From: an uncultured Flammeovirgaceae bacterium
Lineage (GTDB): Bacteria > Bacteroidota > Bacteroidia > Cytophagales > Cyclobacteriaceae
Assembly: GCA_937883755.1 (NCBI GenBank)
Contig: CAKZYA010000057.1
Coordinates: 1-64,000 of the forward strand
Direction: 5' to 3'
DNA: 64,000 bases
Numbering within the stretch: the stretch's first letter is position 1; each line of letters begins with the position of its first letter. Under the pieces are notes generated by a model. That model searched no databases and was not told the DNA's origin. It saw nothing but the letters and a program-made list of their open reading frames with translations. Positions 24,198-53,699 of this stretch are shown here, piece after piece. Both the position numbers and the translations under genes were made by a program.

Positions 24198-24260
24198 AAA
24201 GCAGAGAGCCTGGGGTAGATAGATTTTTAACCAATATCTCTACCCCAGGCTCTCTGCTTT
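24198..24260. terminator. long intergenic hairpin, 22-bp perfect stem
   Basis: Arms at 24198-24219 (AAAGCAGAGAGCCTGGGG and on) and 24239-24260 are perfect inverted copies of 22 bases around a 19-base loop. It sits downstream of the permease gene ending at 24276 and upstream of the sulfatase start. It may terminate the minus-strand permease transcript, though it lacks a good T-tract; the arm words recur once more just after it (CCCTCTGCT at 24264). Confidence 0.6.
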
Positions 24261-26696: not shown

Positions 26697-26908
26697 AGCA
26701 TGAGGGTTAGAAGGTGCAAGGTGAAGGATATGTGGAGTTAAGGATATCTATCTTCTATCGTTTACCGATAATTATTTATTTCGCCTGTTACCTGTTAGAT
26801 GCCAATCATCAAAAAAGGTTGCATGGGTAAGGGGTTGATTACAACAGATTTATCGAGCCGGAGGTAGAAAGTTTGGTATTAACCCCTAGCCCCGTGCTCC
26901 CTGCTAGT

Positions 26909-29305
26909 TTATTCGCTCCTTAGTGCGTCTACCGGATTGGCTAGAGCCGCTCGGGTAGTTTGAAAGCTGACCGTCACTAGAGCTACCAGTAGCGATAAGA
27001 ATCCGGCGAAAATAAATACCCACCAACCGATGCTAATACGGAAGGCAAAACCCTCCAACCAGCCTTGTAACAGATAGTAGGTAACTGGTACAGAAATCAA
27101 AAAAGCAATCAGAATGAGACTGATGAAATTTTTGGACAGTACAGCCAGCAGTTGAACCAGCGATGCACCTAGCACTTTCCGAATTCCAATTTCTTTAGTT
27201 CGCTGTTCCGTTGCGATGGAAGCTAGTCCAAACAAACCTAAGCAAGCAATGATGATAGCTAGACCGGCAATTACCGATACTACTTTGCTCATTTGTTCGT
27301 CGGTCTGATACAATTCTTCAAAGTGTTCATCCAGGAAGGAATACTCAAAGGGGCGGTTAGGAACTAGCGTTTCCCAGGTGCTTTGTACAGCAGTAATGGT
27401 TTCGGTAAGATTATCGGGGCTTACTTTTACCGAAAGTTCGCTGAATCCCCATTCAGGGTGTACGTGGATGGCTAGCGTATTCACGGAATGGTGAAGGGAG
27501 TTGTAGTTGAAGTCATGCGTGATGCCTACAATCGTGCCTAGCGTATCATTATCATACCAGCCAAAACCAAACTGCGCTCCAACCGGATCTTCTAGCCCTA
27601 GCTCCTTAGCTAAGGATTCGTTAATAATAAAACTAAAGCCAGCATCATCAGCGTATTCGCGAGAGAAAGAACGCCCCTCCTTCATTTGAATGCCGTACAC
27701 ATCCAGATAATCGTAGTCGACATTTACCTGAGAGATGGTGAGTTCGTGTATTGATGTATCAGTTTTGACTTTTCCTCCGGTTTGGTGAAAATTGTTACCA
27801 ATCCGTTGGCCAGAGGCGGTTACTCCTGCTACTCCAGGATGAGTGAGCAATTCGTTACGGAGCGTTTCGTACTGCTCGTTGGCTTCATTGCTCATCGGAA
27901 TTAGCATCATCTGCTCCTTGTTAAAGCCAATGTCTTTGCTTTTCATAAAATTGAGTTGCTGCGTAGCCAGTACCGTACCCACAATCAGTGCAATGGCAGT
28001 CGCAAATTGTACCACTACCAAACCACTTCTCAATAGCGACTTCTGATTCAAGCTCTCCAGTTTTCCTTTTAGCACTTTAGCTGGTTGGAAGGAGGATAGA
28101 AACAGGGCAGGATACGAGCCGGATAACACTCCTACCAAACAAGCCACAATCAGTACTCCCACTATTACCTCGATATGATCGAAGATCGTCAGCAGCGATA
28201 GTGAGCGATTAGAGATAGCATTGAGATAAGGAATGAAGGCAGCGGCAATTAGCAGTGATAATACCAGAGCAATTAATGTTAGTAGCACTGACTCACCTAA
28301 GAATTGCCCGACCAACTGTTGCTTCAAGGCTCCAATGGATTTGCGGATACCAACTTCTTTAGAACGGGTAGTAGAACGAGCTACCGAGAGGTTCATAAAA
28401 TTGATACCGGCGATGATGAGCACAAAGAAAGCTAGAATAGAAAATGTCTTGATATACGAGCCATCAAATTTACGGTAGTTCTGGTAATCATGCTCAATAT
28501 CCATTGATCCCAAGTGTACATCGGATAGCTGCTGAAGAAAAAGGGTATAGTAGGTAGTAGCTTCTTCACTCATGTGTGATTCCAGAAACTTAGGAAACTT
28601 GCTCTCCAGCTGCTCAATATCAGTTTGTGGAGCCAATACTAAATAAGTTACCATAAAATTACTTCCCCACTGATCGTTGAACTCAGGTCGCTCTTGTGTG
28701 ACAGTATTGATAGAAATCAAGGCTTCATACTGCAAATGAGAGTTTTCAGGCACATCAGCTAGTACTCCGGTGACTGCGTAATTATCATCGCCAATCACAA
28801 GTTGCTTACCTAATGCATCTTTTCCTCTAAAAAACTTCTGTGCAGTAGTTTCAGTAAGTACGATGCTGTTGGGTTTATCGAGTACGGTACTCGGGTCACC
28901 TTGTAGTAACGCAAAATCAAAGATTTCCAGAAAGGTGGAATCTACTACGGCCGTACGATCAATAACCAGTTGTAAATCTTCTCGCTCATACAATAGGTCA
29001 CCCCAGATCCAGAAACGGGTAAAATTGGTAATCTCAGGCATATCGTTGAGCAGATTGGGACCCATACCCGGCATAGACAGAGCCACGTTCTGTGGGCTCA
29101 TTCCTGGGAACGACTGAACCTCGTCGAGTCGATAAATCTGTCCCTTCTGCTGATGAAAAGCATCAAAGCTTAGCTCATCCGAGATAAAAAGAAAAATAAC
29201 CAGACAGGCCGCCATCCCAATCGCCAGACTCAGCACATTGATGAAGGAGTATACTTTGTAACGGCGAAGGTTGCGTAACGCAATTTTGAGATAATTTCTC
29301 AACAT
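26909..29305 (-). CDS. FtsX/MacB-type ABC transporter permease, second of tandem set
   Basis: A 798-residue paralogue of its two neighbours with the same layout: MLRNYLKIALRNLRRYKVYS and the first TM helix, MacB-PCD domain, FtsX block (INFMNLSVARSTTRSKEVGI), a second periplasmic part and the C-terminal FtsX block (ASIATEQRTKEIGIRKVLGA) ending ANPVDALRSE. Its start codon (ATG on the minus strand, bases 29303-29305) overlaps the outer end of the inverted repeat bounding the S23-like element. No ATPase gene is adjacent. A 212-base gap separates it from the preceding permease and shows no clear structure beyond short C-rich words at its end. Confidence 0.9.
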   Translation of the reverse strand: MLRNYLKIALRNLRRYKVYSFINVLSLAIGMAACLVIFLFISDELSFDAFHQQKGQIYRLDEVQSFPGMSPQNVALSMPGMGPNLLNDMPEITNFTRFWIWGDLLYEREDLQLVIDRTAVVDSTFLEIFDFALLQGDPSTVLDKPNSIVLTETTAQKFFRGKDALGKQLVIGDDNYAVTGVLADVPENSHLQYEALISINTVTQERPEFNDQWGSNFMVTYLVLAPQTDIEQLESKFPKFLESHMSEEATTYYTLFLQQLSDVHLGSMDIEHDYQNYRKFDGSYIKTFSILAFFVLIIAGINFMNLSVARSTTRSKEVGIRKSIGALKQQLVGQFLGESVLLTLIALVLSLLIAAAFIPYLNAISNRSLSLLTIFDHIEVIVGVLIVACLVGVLSGSYPALFLSSFQPAKVLKGKLESLNQKSLLRSGLVVVQFATAIALIVGTVLATQQLNFMKSKDIGFNKEQMMLIPMSNEANEQYETLRNELLTHPGVAGVTASGQRIGNNFHQTGGKVKTDTSIHELTISQVNVDYDYLDVYGIQMKEGRSFSREYADDAGFSFIINESLAKELGLEDPVGAQFGFGWYDNDTLGTIVGITHDFNYNSLHHSVNTLAIHVHPEWGFSELSVKVSPDNLTETITAVQSTWETLVPNRPFEYSFLDEHFEELYQTDEQMSKVVSVIAGLAIIIACLGLFGLASIATEQRTKEIGIRKVLGASLVQLLAVLSKNFISLILIAFLISVPVTYYLLQGWLEGFAFRISIGWWVFIFAGFLSLLVALVTVSFQTTRAALANPVDALRSE

Positions 29306-29808
29306 AATGATTGATGACTAGTGAGTAATGAATAATGATGAATTGATGGTAGTGATGAGAGGTAAGGCACAAATCTTGAAAGTAGATTATACCTACTATG
29401 AGCAGGAAAAAGAATATTATTAAAGAAAAGTCGTATGGCTTTGCACTTCGGATAATAACGCTTTATAAGCTGCTTACTAAAGAGAGAAAAGAATACGTGC
29501 TCTCTAAGCAGATATTGCGGAGTGGCACCTCTATTGGAGCAAACGTTACTGAAGCCGATGCGGCTATCTCCAAAGCTGAGTTTTCGGCCAAGATGTCCGT
29601 AGCATATAAAGAAGCAATGGAAACTGGCTATTGGTTGAACCTTTTGCACGACAGTAAATTTATTAGCTCAACAGAGTTTGACGATCTGAATGAAGAATGT
29701 ACGTCTATCTGTAAAATACTTTTCTCTATTCTCAAATCTTCTGGCAGAATTAATAGATAATGATTGATGAATAATGCCCTTCATTAATCACTAGTCATTA
29801 ATCATTAT
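29304..29808. mobile_element. candidate S23-like element bounded by 21-bp inverted repeats
   Basis: The outer ends are near-identical inverted repeats, 20 of 21 bases (29304-29324 beginning ATAATGATTGATGACTAG, and 29788-29808 as its complement). Between them lies the four-helix-bundle ORF on the strand opposite to the flanking permeases. A further exact copy of ATAATGATTGATGA occurs at 29757-29770. The repeat ends provide the start region of one permease and the stop codon of the next, so insertion there is plausible. Mobility is inference from structure only. Confidence 0.45.
29398..29760 (+). CDS. four-helix-bundle protein, 23S rRNA intervening-sequence (S23) type
   Basis: A 120-residue all-helical protein of the four helix bundle family TIGR02436/S23, named for ORFs found in intervening sequences of 23S rRNA genes. 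Typical blocks: SYGFALRIITLYKLLTKERK, LSKQILRSGTSIGANVTEAD, AISKAEFSAKMSVAYKEAME and TGYWLNLLHDS. The function is unknown; an RNA-binding basic surface and relationship to the Avd accessory protein of diversity-generating retroelements have been proposed for the family. It is transcribed against the permease array and lies inside a pair of inverted repeats; its stop codon overlaps a repeat copy. Confidence 0.9.
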   Translation: MSRKKNIIKEKSYGFALRIITLYKLLTKERKEYVLSKQILRSGTSIGANVTEADAAISKAEFSAKMSVAYKEAMETGYWLNLLHDSKFISSTEFDDLNEECTSICKILFSILKSSGRINR

Positions 29809-32255
29809 TCATTCCTAAGTGAGTCTACCGGGTTAGCGGTGGCGGCTCGGAGTGATTTATAGCCTACAGTCACTAAAGCAATTAGCATAGAAGCGACTAG
29901 GGCTAGAACGAAGTAGCCAATGCCGAGCGGAATTTTGTACACGAATGTCTCCAACCAGGCTTGCATAGCGAAGTAGCCAAGCGGTGCGGCGATGACAAAG
30001 GCTAATAATACTAACCAGGCAAACTCCTTCGTGAAGAGGTAGAGAATATGGCTGACCGTTGCACCTAATGTTTTACGTACTCCAATCTCCTTACGCCGCT
30101 GTAAAGCCAGATATGACACCAATCCGTATAGTCCCAGGCAGCCGATGATAATAGAGAGGAAAGCAAATAAGCGGAAGCCTTGATACATCACATCCTCAAT
30201 CACGTAGAAAGCGCCGTACTCAAAATATTCATCTAATGACATGGCTGAGTAATAGTAGTCTGGATATATTTCTTTCCAGCTTTCTTCTACAGCGGTGAGT
30301 TGTTGTACGGGCTGAGGAGTTGCCATCTTTACCGCTGCCATCCATACACTTTCACCTTGGCTATGGAGCATTACGGGGTGGATTTCATCCTGAAGGGGAG
30401 CATTGAAAAAATCTTCTACCACACCGATAATAGTGGCTTTTTGTTCACCGTAAGTAATCATGGTTTCACCAATAGCATCTTCAATATTAGTGAAACCTAG
30501 TTTGGTAACGGCTTTTTTATTGAGCAATACATTGTATTCGTCTGAAGAATCAGCAGGCAATACCCGATCTTCTTCCCTCAGATTACGTCCGGCTACCAAC
30601 TCTATATCAAATACTGATAAGTACTGTGGGTCAACTCGTTTTCTCTCGATACCAAATCGTTGATCTTCTCCCTGCGCCGGATTGCGAATACCGGTCCAAC
30701 TATTACTACCCGACATGGGTGGGCCAGTACAGAAAGACACATCGGTTACGGCCGCTTGAGCAACAATTTTGTCGCGGAAAGTATCCAGATTTTGCTCTTC
30801 TTTTTGAGGGATAAACACCACGGCAATATCATCGGTGGCAAACCCCAAATCACTTTCTCGCACGAAGCTCATCTGACTGGATACTACAATAGTACCGATT
30901 ATCAGTAATTGAGAAATGACGAATTGAGTAACTACTAGGGTTTTACGAAGCGAAAACTTCCCGGCGAACCCGGTATTCTTAGCAGTCATTGATTGCTTAA
31001 GTGCCTCAGTTGGCTTGAAGCCGGCTAAGATACGAGCTGGATAATAGCCCGCTAGTAGTGTAACCATGAGAACCAACCCCACCAAAAAATAAATAACACT
31101 AGCATCTAACGCCAAGCCGTAGTCTAATACTACTAGCAAAAACTGATTAAATGCATCAGCAAATTCCCCGGCTATTACCACTGCTAGCAAGGAAGCCACT
31201 GCCGCAATAATAAAGGTCTCTCCCATAAACTGGAGCACTATCTGCCTCTTACGGCTGCCCAATGCTTTGCGGATACCAATCTCCTTTGCCCGCTTCACCG
31301 ACTGGGCAGTTGATAGATTAATAAAGTTAATACAAGCGGTAAGCAATACAATAATCGCCATAGTAACGAAGGCGATAATAAGGATACTTGGAGTAGCGTA
31401 CATGGTTCCTCCGTAGCGTTCGTCGGTATGCACTTCAGGCAAGGGCTGGAGATGATAGCTACGACGAGCAGCTCTATCTTCGGTATAATTTTTTTCTACT
31501 AGCATTCCCAAACGATTCTCCAGTTCTGTAGGATCATACCCTTTAGGTAGCGTAACAAAAGTAGCCCAATCAGAACTCCCTTGATTCCAATCGTAGATCC
31601 AATTATCGTTACGTTGAATGTAGTCTTGCATGGACATCAGCATTCGGAACGTCACGTTGGTATTGCGAGGCGCATCTTCCAGTATGCCGCTAATCTGGTA
31701 AGGACGCTGCTCTATGACGATGGTCTGACCTAGTAGCTGCTGATAATCTTCTTTTACCTCTTTTCCAAAGAACTTATCAGCCAGTTCTTGGGTAAGAACT
31801 ACTTCGTCCGGTTTACTAAGTAGGCCTGTCGGCTGTCCAGCTAGTAACTTATAATCAAAAGTCTGTAAGAAGTATTCATCTACGTATACTGCGTTATCTT
31901 CCTCAAATATTGCTGGGGTACCACTTTCTTTATCTACTTTCACATTAACATTCTGCCCCATCACTACCCGAGTAGCTGACTCTATCTCAGCAAACTCGTC
32001 CTGGAAAGATTCAGCCATTGGAAATGGAACGCCTCCGTTATAGCTAATACCATTCTCTCCTTTGTACTGACTAACTACACGAAAGGTACGGTCGGCTTTC
32101 TCGTGCCAAGTATCAAAGCTATGTTCATGTTTGATGAAGGCATAAATGAAGATACAGCAAGCTAGGCTGAGCGTGAGACCTAGAATGTTGATGACGGTGC
32201 TGAACGAGTTACGGCGGAAATTCCGCAGGGTGGTGATGAGGTAGTTCTTAAACAT
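29805..32255 (-). CDS. FtsX/MacB-type ABC transporter permease, third of tandem set
   Basis: An 816-residue paralogue with the conserved plan: MFKNYLITTLRNFRRNSFST then TM1, MacB-PCD domain, FtsX block (FINLSTAQSVKRAKEIGIRK), second periplasmic region and C-terminal FtsX block (YLALQRRKEIGVRKTLGATV) ending ANPVDSLRNE. It is more divergent than the others in the periplasmic domains, which suggests separate function rather than recent duplication. Its stop codon lies in the right inverted repeat of the S23-like element. Confidence 0.9.
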   Translation of the reverse strand: MFKNYLITTLRNFRRNSFSTVINILGLTLSLACCIFIYAFIKHEHSFDTWHEKADRTFRVVSQYKGENGISYNGGVPFPMAESFQDEFAEIESATRVVMGQNVNVKVDKESGTPAIFEEDNAVYVDEYFLQTFDYKLLAGQPTGLLSKPDEVVLTQELADKFFGKEVKEDYQQLLGQTIVIEQRPYQISGILEDAPRNTNVTFRMLMSMQDYIQRNDNWIYDWNQGSSDWATFVTLPKGYDPTELENRLGMLVEKNYTEDRAARRSYHLQPLPEVHTDERYGGTMYATPSILIIAFVTMAIIVLLTACINFINLSTAQSVKRAKEIGIRKALGSRKRQIVLQFMGETFIIAAVASLLAVVIAGEFADAFNQFLLVVLDYGLALDASVIYFLVGLVLMVTLLAGYYPARILAGFKPTEALKQSMTAKNTGFAGKFSLRKTLVVTQFVISQLLIIGTIVVSSQMSFVRESDLGFATDDIAVVFIPQKEEQNLDTFRDKIVAQAAVTDVSFCTGPPMSGSNSWTGIRNPAQGEDQRFGIERKRVDPQYLSVFDIELVAGRNLREEDRVLPADSSDEYNVLLNKKAVTKLGFTNIEDAIGETMITYGEQKATIIGVVEDFFNAPLQDEIHPVMLHSQGESVWMAAVKMATPQPVQQLTAVEESWKEIYPDYYYSAMSLDEYFEYGAFYVIEDVMYQGFRLFAFLSIIIGCLGLYGLVSYLALQRRKEIGVRKTLGATVSHILYLFTKEFAWLVLLAFVIAAPLGYFAMQAWLETFVYKIPLGIGYFVLALVASMLIALVTVGYKSLRAATANPVDSLRNE

Positions 32256-41542: not shown

Positions 41543-41610
41543 TTTGGGAATTAGGGATTGGGTGTTAGGCATTAGATTATAAAGTAATCTAACTGCGAAT
41601 CCCAACCTTG
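41543..41610. repeat. intergenic word-like tract with hairpin (AATTAGGGATTGGG type)
   Basis: After pdxH, the words GGGAATTAGGGATTGGG and TTAGGCATTAG are followed by a perfect hairpin, TTAGATTA (41572-41579) with TAATCTAA (41585-41592), and then GAATCCCAACC, partly complementary to the first words. It resembles the tract at 12244-12338 in the opposite sense. It may double as a terminator for pdxH. Confidence 0.4.
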
Positions 41611-41681
41611 TAAGAAAGTCTTTTAAGGCAAAATTTCAGTAATTTGCCTTTCTAATCTTTAATACCCAACCCCAAATAACT

Positions 41682-45075: not shown

Positions 45076-45087
45076 AATGACCGATGG

Positions 45088-45139
45088 ATAATGATTGATG
45101 ATTAATTCACTAATCATTATTCATCAATCATTATTCATT
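45088..45139. repeat. solo repeat of the S23-element end family
   Basis: Contains an exact copy of ATAATGATTGATGA (45088-45101) also found at 29304-29317 and 29757-29770, followed by TTCACTAATCAT (45106-45117) and two copies of AATCATTATTCAT. Arms 45090-45106 and 45116-45132 form an imperfect hairpin. It looks like the two ends of the S23-like element joined without its gene. It ends against the ATG of rsmG. Confidence 0.55.
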
Positions 45140-48881: not shown

Positions 48882-48908
48882 CTATTTTGTGCATTATTGA
48901 GGCGACCA

Positions 48909-49373
48909 TTATTCTGCAATAGTAATTGTAAATGTCGTGGTCAACCCAACACTAAAGTTTCTAGGCAGCTTTTCAACGCCAAATATTGCTCTTGAATGCT
49001 GTCCTTTGGCTCCTAAAATATTCGCGAATAAATCAGAAGCACCATCTACTACTTTTGGTGAGTCATCCCAATCATCACTCGCTTGAAAATAAGCATCAAT
49101 GTGATTTAATCCAATCAAATGGTCAAAGCCGACTTTTCCGTGTATTTGTGCCAACACATTCATAGCACATAATTTCATAGCTTGGTAACCGTCTTCAGTC
49201 GTTAATTCACTTCCTAAACGTCCGGTGTATAAGTATTTTCCATCTAGGATTGGAAATTGAATTGCTACGTAGGCAATATTGTTTCTAATATTCACTGATA
49301 CATAGTTGCCACCAGGGTTTGATATCTCAGGAAGTTTCAGCCCTATTTCGCTTAGTTTATCTAGCGGCTTCAT
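48909..49373 (-). CDS. RidA family protein
   Basis: A 154-residue protein of the RidA/YjgF/UK114 family, some of which hydrolyse reactive enamine/imine intermediates. Family marks: the VSVNIRNNIAYVAIQFPILD strand region, YTGRLGSELTTEDGYQAMKL, DHLIGLNHIDAYFQASDDW and a C-terminal HSRAIFGVEKLPRNFSVGLT, which differs from the canonical RxAVxVxxLPxxxxVE; the catalytic-site Arg is in HSRAIF. This long subgroup (near 150 residues) may not have deaminase activity. It is 3 bases from the next gene. Confidence 0.85.
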   Translation of the reverse strand: MKPLDKLSEIGLKLPEISNPGGNYVSVNIRNNIAYVAIQFPILDGKYLYTGRLGSELTTEDGYQAMKLCAMNVLAQIHGKVGFDHLIGLNHIDAYFQASDDWDDSPKVVDGASDLFANILGAKGQHSRAIFGVEKLPRNFSVGLTTTFTITIAE

Positions 49374-53620: not shown

Positions 53621-53699
53621 ATGACTAATGACGGGTGATTGATGAATAGTTAGAGAAGTCATTAGTCATCGGTCATTATTCACTAATCATGAGTCATTA
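53621..53699. repeat. repeat of the S23-element end family upstream of a sigma gene
   Basis: A perfect 12-bp inverted repeat, ATGACTAATGAC (53621-53632) and GTCATTAGTCAT (53658-53669), encloses TGATTGATGAATA, identical to a segment at 29761-29773. TTCACTAATCAT (53679-53690) matches 45106-45117. The tract ends inside the first codons of the following sigma gene. Confidence 0.5.

Follow-up and report, generated by a model that had tools for sequence, protein, structure and literature searches.

A Gene for an S23-Type Four-Helix-Bundle Protein between Inverted Heptamer Arrays: A Probable Minimal Mobile Element with Relatives in Many Phyla

The S23 Gene of the Window and Its Surroundings

The window considered here, a stretch of 64,000 nucleotides from an uncultured Flammeovirgaceae bacterium (assembly GCA_937883755.1, contig CAKZYA010000057.1, positions 1 to 64,000), carries a gene for a 120-aa four-helix-bundle protein of the S23, or 23S_rRNA_IVP, type (29398-29760, + strand), enclosed by inverted repeats. 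The protein matches PF05635 in Pfam (E = 1.8e-27) and TIGR02436 in NCBIfam (E = 2.7e-30); no Rfam family was matched in positions 28000-31000. The left outer arm of 29 nt (29304-29332, +) is identical at 27 positions to the reverse complement of 29780-29808. A preliminary description, made from the sequence alone, had already placed an S23-type gene between inverted repeats; both the gene and the repeats are real, and the length given there, 21 bp with 20 identical, is too short.

The left side of the element contains a 35-nt array (29308-29342, +) of five degenerate 7-mers, TGATTGA TGACTAG TGAGTAA TGAATAA TGATGAA, which follow TGANTRR or a close form. The right end (29757-29808, +) is a hairpin in itself (RNA fold z-score -4.1); it holds the right arm, 29780-29808, and the S23 stop codon, 29758-29760, sits within this repeat. 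The element is bordered by two co-directional genes of MacB/FtsX-type permeases, 26909-29305 and 29805-32255, both on the - strand and both with matches to PF12704 and PF02687, so that the S23 gene is antisense to them. The start codon of the left permease gene (29303-29305) and the stop codon of the next one (29805-29807) overlap the arm ends. The antisense placement amid permease genes, and the contribution of the repeat ends to one permease's start region and to the stop codon of its neighbour, had been noted in the preliminary description and agree with the gene coordinates and domain matches.

Inverted Arms at S23 Genes of the Genus and Family

PF05635 is present in all four genomes of the genus, that of the window and those of three congeners (G001, G002, and G003), and in 68 of the 78 family genomes sampled. 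These 78 genomes contain 371 S23 matches, of which 30 were taken by default and a further 80 from high up in the list; the genome of the window contributed 4 more loci and the three congeners 24, giving 138 in all. An open reading frame (ORF) was found at 136 of them and covered enough of the profile at 132; the removal of two loci with short flanks and two duplicates left 128. For each locus, the 250 bp upstream of the gene were aligned with the reverse complement of the 250 bp downstream, with a score of at least 25 as the threshold for arms and the sequence 350-600 bp from the gene as an outer control.

Across the 128 loci the mean score was 29.2 for arms of the same locus versus 18.1 for mismatched arms, and the maximum of 5000 permutations was 19.3. 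The inverted repeats that the preliminary description had proposed to look for at the S23 genes of related genomes are present: the threshold was reached beside the S23 gene at 78 of 126 loci and in the outer control at none of the 126. At the loci reaching it, arm identity at lags of 7, 14, and 21 nt was 0.53, 0.50, and 0.46, respectively, versus 0.25-0.27 in the outer sequence. Among control ORFs from the window and 80 kb of G001, 4 of 104 reached a score of 25, two of these being S23 genes themselves; the remaining two (of 102 non-S23 controls) are a permease gene lying between two hairpins and an unexplained 154-aa ORF of the window (48908-49373, - strand) with inverted flanks scoring 28. 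It is also worth mentioning that TGANTRR matches by the dozen crowd a 14.7-kb contig of another genome (G079, C49) together with two or more S23 genes, possibly as elements nested in one another.

The Elements in Other Phyla and Their 7-mer Dialects

The S23 genes with arms are present in many phyla. A scan of named genomes gave at least 37 S23 loci, one of which was dropped for its short flank; the matches listed include bacteria of the Candidate Phyla Radiation (CPR), Verrucomicrobia, Planctomycetes, Acidobacteria, Omnitrophota, Lentisphaerae, Proteobacteria, Bacteroidota, and others. Among these listed matches, arms scoring at least 25 flank the gene at 28 of 36 loci, versus 0 of 34 outer controls, and at one Opitutales locus the two arms share an identical run of 35 nt. 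Nine S23 loci were found on viral contigs; five of them have arms, all of one dialect (see below), and the four armless ones give identical results. A search with one S23 protein against 50,697 phage records gave no match.

A single circular 7-mer, (A/G)G(A/T)NNNN, was fitted to the arms of 107 loci and fits them better than it does shuffled arms; its G stands at 0.86, and C makes up 9% overall. Within this loose consensus every locus keeps its own fixed version, called here its dialect. The arrays extend over medians of 35 and 34 nt, about five 7-nt units. Similar S23 proteins encoded at unrelated sites share a dialect in 17 of 71 pairs with at least 50% identity versus 48 of 1165 pairs below 30%; with the limit set at 45% identity or more, 7 of 1000 permutations reach the observed value. 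Complementarity within a locus exceeds that between loci in 67 of 85 pairs with the same neighbours, pairs that are not independent of one another; a measure based on homologous arms was left unused, being inflated by adjoining coding sequence. These sequence comparisons are no more than suggestive of a coevolution of the S23 gene with its dialect.

Filled and Empty Spacers in Related Genomes and Plasmids

The same spacers are found with and without the element in relatives. In the genus, the window spacer holds an S23 gene in two of the four genomes: the orthologous gene of G001 (L057) also has TGANTRR arms, and the corresponding spacers of G003 (105 bp) and G002 (about 75 bp) are without S23 and contain hairpins of a GCAATGA-like and a GGGGGCG-like dialect, respectively. 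The spacer between a penicillin-binding-protein-like and a murE-like gene (named by eye) is occupied by S23 in one of the four, G001, and measures 60-92 bp in the other three.

Cyanobacterial plasmids provide four further sites, compared in pairs with flanks about 90-94% alike; at all four, S23 is the sole annotated gene of the extra stretch. In a Nostoc plasmid cluster, the geneA|geneB spacer contains an S23 element in three plasmids and is 3 bp long in five, and at the next spacer, geneB|geneC, one plasmid has another S23 gene, of another dialect, and eight are empty; this comparison leaves out the spacers of the Halotia copy (L335). Two plasmids have the element in a Calothrix-type spacer that measures 3 bp in three others, and Picosynechococcus PCC 7003 has it in the cmr2|cmr3 spacer, which comprises 12 bp in PCC 7002. 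Empty sites in close relatives, another check that had been proposed, are found in plasmids; the congeners have the spacers without S23. Since two S23 genes of unlike dialects occupy neighbouring spacers of one Nostoc cluster, gain is favoured over loss.

Several other inserts were seen at such sites. One plasmid of the Nostoc cluster (L328) has another small ORF within geneA|geneB, and in Nostoc pNsp_b (L334:1845-2523) a pair of short genes annotated as S23 is accompanied by GGGAAAA-type arrays, one array apparently lying within S23 coding sequence. The pair Anabaena 90 and Dolichospermum pUHCC0315a was rejected as a clean empty-site pair: the cas6|cas4 spacer holds S23 in the former and an unrelated palindromic insert (GTAGGTTGGGTTGACGC...; L322:1417-1663) in the latter. 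This spacer seems to serve as a common landing site.

The End Motif and Gene-Less Hairpins

The end motif of the window element, ATAATGATTGATGA, has five matches in the window at no more than one mismatch (0.03 expected; none of 100 shuffles reaches five) and 20 exact copies in the whole genome, versus one for the reversed pattern; for TGANTRRTGANTRRTGA the genome-wide figures are 196 and 2. The two further exact sites of the motif claimed in the preliminary description exist, but they are the two arms of one gene-less, or solo, hairpin of TGANTRR dialect (45084-45138, +; RNA fold z-score -6.1). This hairpin and a second one of the same dialect (53621-53669, +) are common to the window and G001. 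A third solo hairpin (41558-41675, +) has another dialect, TTGGGTGTTAGG-like, and the equivalent spacer of G001 has a hairpin of CCGGAGA dialect. The strong palindrome AAAGCAGAGAGCCTGGGGTAGATAGATT at 24198-24260 has no 7-nt period and represents a separate repeat family.

A hairpin census of 944 kb (the window and 880 kb of G001), which detects loops under about 300 nt only, gave 261 hairpins with a score of at least 22. In 30 of them, among which is the right end of the window element itself, the dominant period is 7; every other period from 4 to 11 accounts for 0-6 hairpins. In 28 of the 30 heptameric hairpins the purine-rich arm comes first, and 28 are closer to the S23 arms of the genus than to size-matched S23 arms of other genomes, with a mean similarity of 0.60 versus 0.21. 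Besides TGANTRR, they display the dialects of the S23 loci L010, L043, L044, L045, L052, and L053. Judged by their sequences, the gene-less hairpins would look like non-autonomous copies of the element family; insertion of S23 genes into pre-existing hairpins would fit too.

TGANTRR matches number 196 in the window's own genome, 465 in G001, 72 in G002, and 81 in G003, and the family is thus 2.4 to 6.5 times commoner where an S23 gene of that dialect is present, a comparison of four genomes only. Other sequences were also seen between TGANTRR repeats: a 128-aa ORF, not S23-like by eye, between arrays in G001 (L347:604-1037; C1:952903-953336), and a tRNA-Gly gene (503-576) between two hairpins (L348:437-642; G000 C2).

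Candidate Enzymes, Structure, and Genomic Setting

Against Pfam the S23 protein of the window matched PF05635 alone and neither a Y1 transposase nor a catalytic family; its matches in NCBIfam and Pfam together are to S23-type models only, with no transposase family. A reverse transcriptase acting in trans was rejected as a general requirement: 38 of the 68 genomes with S23 lack PF00078 (RVT_1), and in the 78 family genomes the counts of this domain do not follow those of S23 (rho -0.05). The window's genome has six RVT_1 matches, none of them on contig C57, and G001 has none, despite 13 S23 matches.

A RAYT of the Pfam family PF01797 acting in trans was rejected as well. Its matches number 7 in the window's own genome, 0 in G001, and 5 each in G002 and G003, and do not track the TGANTRR matches; three of the nine RAYT loci examined, out of 17 matches, reach a score of 25, with arms that by eye are not 7-mer arrays. 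In G001 a RAYT-like ORF without a Pfam match (L069:6908-7498, - strand) fills a permease spacer that is shorter in the window (26697-26899). It contains the sequence MPNHVHGIIII, which we take to be a typical RAYT motif. Divergent RAYTs may therefore have escaped the Pfam-based count.

S23 elements as 23S rRNA inserts were likewise rejected for the present set, since none of 194 S23 loci matched the 23S rRNA of E. coli. The elements are found within operon-like gene pairs, e.g., nrdB|nrdA, cas6|cas4, and cmr2|cmr3, and PMC3936711 counts 18 IVP genes in cas loci. Four hairpins folded as RNA gave z-scores of -2.4 to -6.1. Each of the two solved S23 homologues, 2gsc and 2rld, is made up of five chains; the 2gsc protein is, by the title of a paper listed in PMC3936711, an assembly of five four-helix bundles.

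The Proposed Mobile Element and Its Alternatives

The minimal mobile element suggested in the preliminary description is well supported by the generality of arms at S23 genes and by relatives whose corresponding spacers lack S23. The reading favoured here, which we consider probable, is that the window holds one copy of an element of this kind that is widespread, in which S23 would act on the arrays and a host enzyme would do the chemistry. Its anatomy, with degenerate 7-mers in inverted arrays on the two sides of an S23 gene and a total length of about 0.4-0.6 kb, was observed directly, as were its occurrence in many phyla and its presence or absence at equivalent spacers of relatives; it would settle in short intergenic spacers, often within operons. 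As the sole protein encoded by these elements, S23 is the best candidate for a trans-acting factor. It would bind the arrays with about one (A/G)G(A/T)NNNN unit per subunit; the five chains of 2gsc and 2rld, taken with the array medians of about five units, lead to the proposal of a pentamer on the five units of one folded-back arm. In this way S23 would recognise the ends of the element, probably in the form of single-stranded DNA or RNA folded back on itself, and would mobilise in trans both the element and its gene-less hairpin relatives. The chemistry is probably that of a host enzyme, because S23 shows no known catalytic domain. We infer that mobility is driven by S23 itself, which would probably sit on the arrays in pentameric form.

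A number of observations weigh against this reading. Clear arms at the threshold are lacking at 48 of the 126 genus and family loci and at 8 of the 36 cross-phylum loci among the matches listed, the eight including three of four Acidobacteria and the WOR-3 locus. The cyanobacterial plasmid set (10 loci from 36 records, 8 of them scoring at least 25 in the arms) is weaker evidence, because 4 of its 10 outer controls also reach 25. Movement is read from the comparison of sites, no transposition having been seen, and loss could account for single sites; a possible target duplication, TTCTA, accompanies one of the four plasmid sites, and none is evident at the other three. The strict pairing of repeat family and gene that the preliminary description had proposed to examine is not borne out: TGANTRR persists in G002 and G003, where none of 11 S23 loci carries a TGANTRR array, so that the family does not always accompany the gene. 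Genes other than S23 can also sit between such hairpins, the link of gene and dialect is weak, with a Mantel test that is not significant (82/1000), and the agreement of five chains with five 7-nt units rests on two medians. Finally, S23 has no recognisable catalytic domain.

The last point speaks for the explanation in which S23 is a passenger, its genes being loop cargo of 7-mer hairpins that are themselves mobile through a RAYT-like transposase, a reverse transcriptase, or template switching in replication. Gene-free hairpins occur across G001, where 465 TGANTRR matches stand against 13 S23 matches, and TGANTRR hairpins are found in congeners without S23 of that dialect; the 128-aa ORF and the tRNA-Gly gene also lie between such hairpins. 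We nevertheless regard this explanation as unlikely, though deserving serious attention, as the arms are systematic at S23 genes across phyla (among the matches listed) and were seen at 2 of 102 other ORFs, PF01797 is absent from G001, the congener richest in TGANTRR, and the distribution of RVT_1 given above speaks against a reverse transcriptase.

The arms might also act as RNA, forming a stem cut by RNase III as in the intervening sequences (IVSs) of 23S rRNA, with S23 as an autoregulator or operon regulator and with mobility rare and incidental. The folding z-scores and the location of S23 within operon-like pairs are consistent with such a role, and RNase III cuts the stems of rRNA IVSs, according to the passages of PMC4990558 that deal with them; the empty and filled spacers of related plasmids and the turnover of dialects at one site are left unexplained. 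We hold this alternative to be quite improbable. It is very hard to credit that the arrays are neutral products of 7-nt slippage in spacers, unconnected with S23. In one study, heptanucleotide repeats are indeed described as the most frequent class for the majority of genomes and are ascribed to polymerase slippage (PMC4679880), but slippage cannot yield two inverted, locus-specific arms around one gene family, with outer controls of 0/126 and, among the cross-phylum matches listed, 0/34, and the matched-arm scores contradict it.

If S23 does mobilise these elements, they would be among the smallest autonomous ones, without a recognised transposase. S23 proteins have been without an assigned function since their description in rRNA IVSs, and the inverted 7-nt arrays, together with the filled and empty sites, make a function testable. 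A broader proposal may be offered tentatively, as one we hold possible rather than probable: S23/IVP would be a transposase-less, pentameric four-helix-bundle mobility system that reads five-unit (A/G)G(A/T)NNNN arrays on hairpin ends and moves elements of about half a kilobase and gene-less hairpins across many phyla, the rRNA IVSs being the minority that landed in rRNA and Avd a relative in other use; in that case, much of the intergenic 7-mer repeat content would be left-over debris of the S23 system.

Comparison with Known Systems

Insertion sequences and miniature inverted-repeat transposable elements resemble the S23 elements in their small size, terminal inverted repeats, gene-less derivatives, and empty sites in relatives; the S23 elements differ from them in matching no transposase family, and a target duplication was not consistent over the four plasmid sites, with the possible TTCTA at one. 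The parallel with REP repeats and RAYT proteins, drawn in the preliminary description, holds as an analogy: in the REP/BIME system as here, a gene-bearing copy is accompanied by many scattered gene-less hairpins of the same sequence family, which among the S23 elements share its dialect. It does not extend to the enzyme, since RAYTs are Y1 (HUH) transposases, S23 matches none, the RAYT loci examined lack 7-mer arms, and Pfam RAYTs do not track the hairpins.

Repeats of 7-nt units are known from other contexts. The STRR sequences of cyanobacteria are tandem 7-mer repeats. The TAACTGA repeats of Beggiatoaceae, Cyanobacteria, and Bacteroidetes share with the present arrays their unit length, intergenic location, and overlapping lineages; in the portion of PMC4679880 that treats them they are described as direct, with one inverted case, whereas the arrays reported here are inverted around one gene family. 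The main text of PMC4679880 uses neither "S23" nor "helix bundle" as a term, and searches of the open-access literature, subscription journals being outside their range, showed no link of S23 genes to 7-mer inverted repeats. Such a link offers an origin for part of the intergenic 7-mer repeats.

PF05635 is said in PMC10053308 to be similar to Avd, the accessory protein of diversity-generating retroelements. The folds are related; a cyanobacterial S23 protein scores 35.5 bits against the bAvd model, below the cut-off of 40. Avd is encoded beside a reverse transcriptase, in contrast to S23, over half of whose host genomes in the family, as given above, are without RVT_1. The tie of S23 to arrays suggests a possible past role of the Avd fold outside retroelements.

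A further comparison is with the rRNA IVSs, which share with the window element the protein family PF05635 and terminal inverted repeats able to form a stem. They lie inside an rRNA gene, whereas the window element lies between two permease genes; the elements described here have locus-specific 7-mer arrays, occupy intergenic and operon spacers, and are accompanied by families of gene-less hairpins. CPR bacteria carry IVP genes within their 16S and 23S genes, inserted at several different sites (PMC11270868). IVSs are termed selfish in PMC4990558, which gives 28 bp for the terminal-repeat stem in Coxiella, and an origin of IVSs from a mobile element was proposed by Ralph and McClelland in 1993, as cited there. 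The tie of S23 to inverted 7-mer arrays would offer such an origin.

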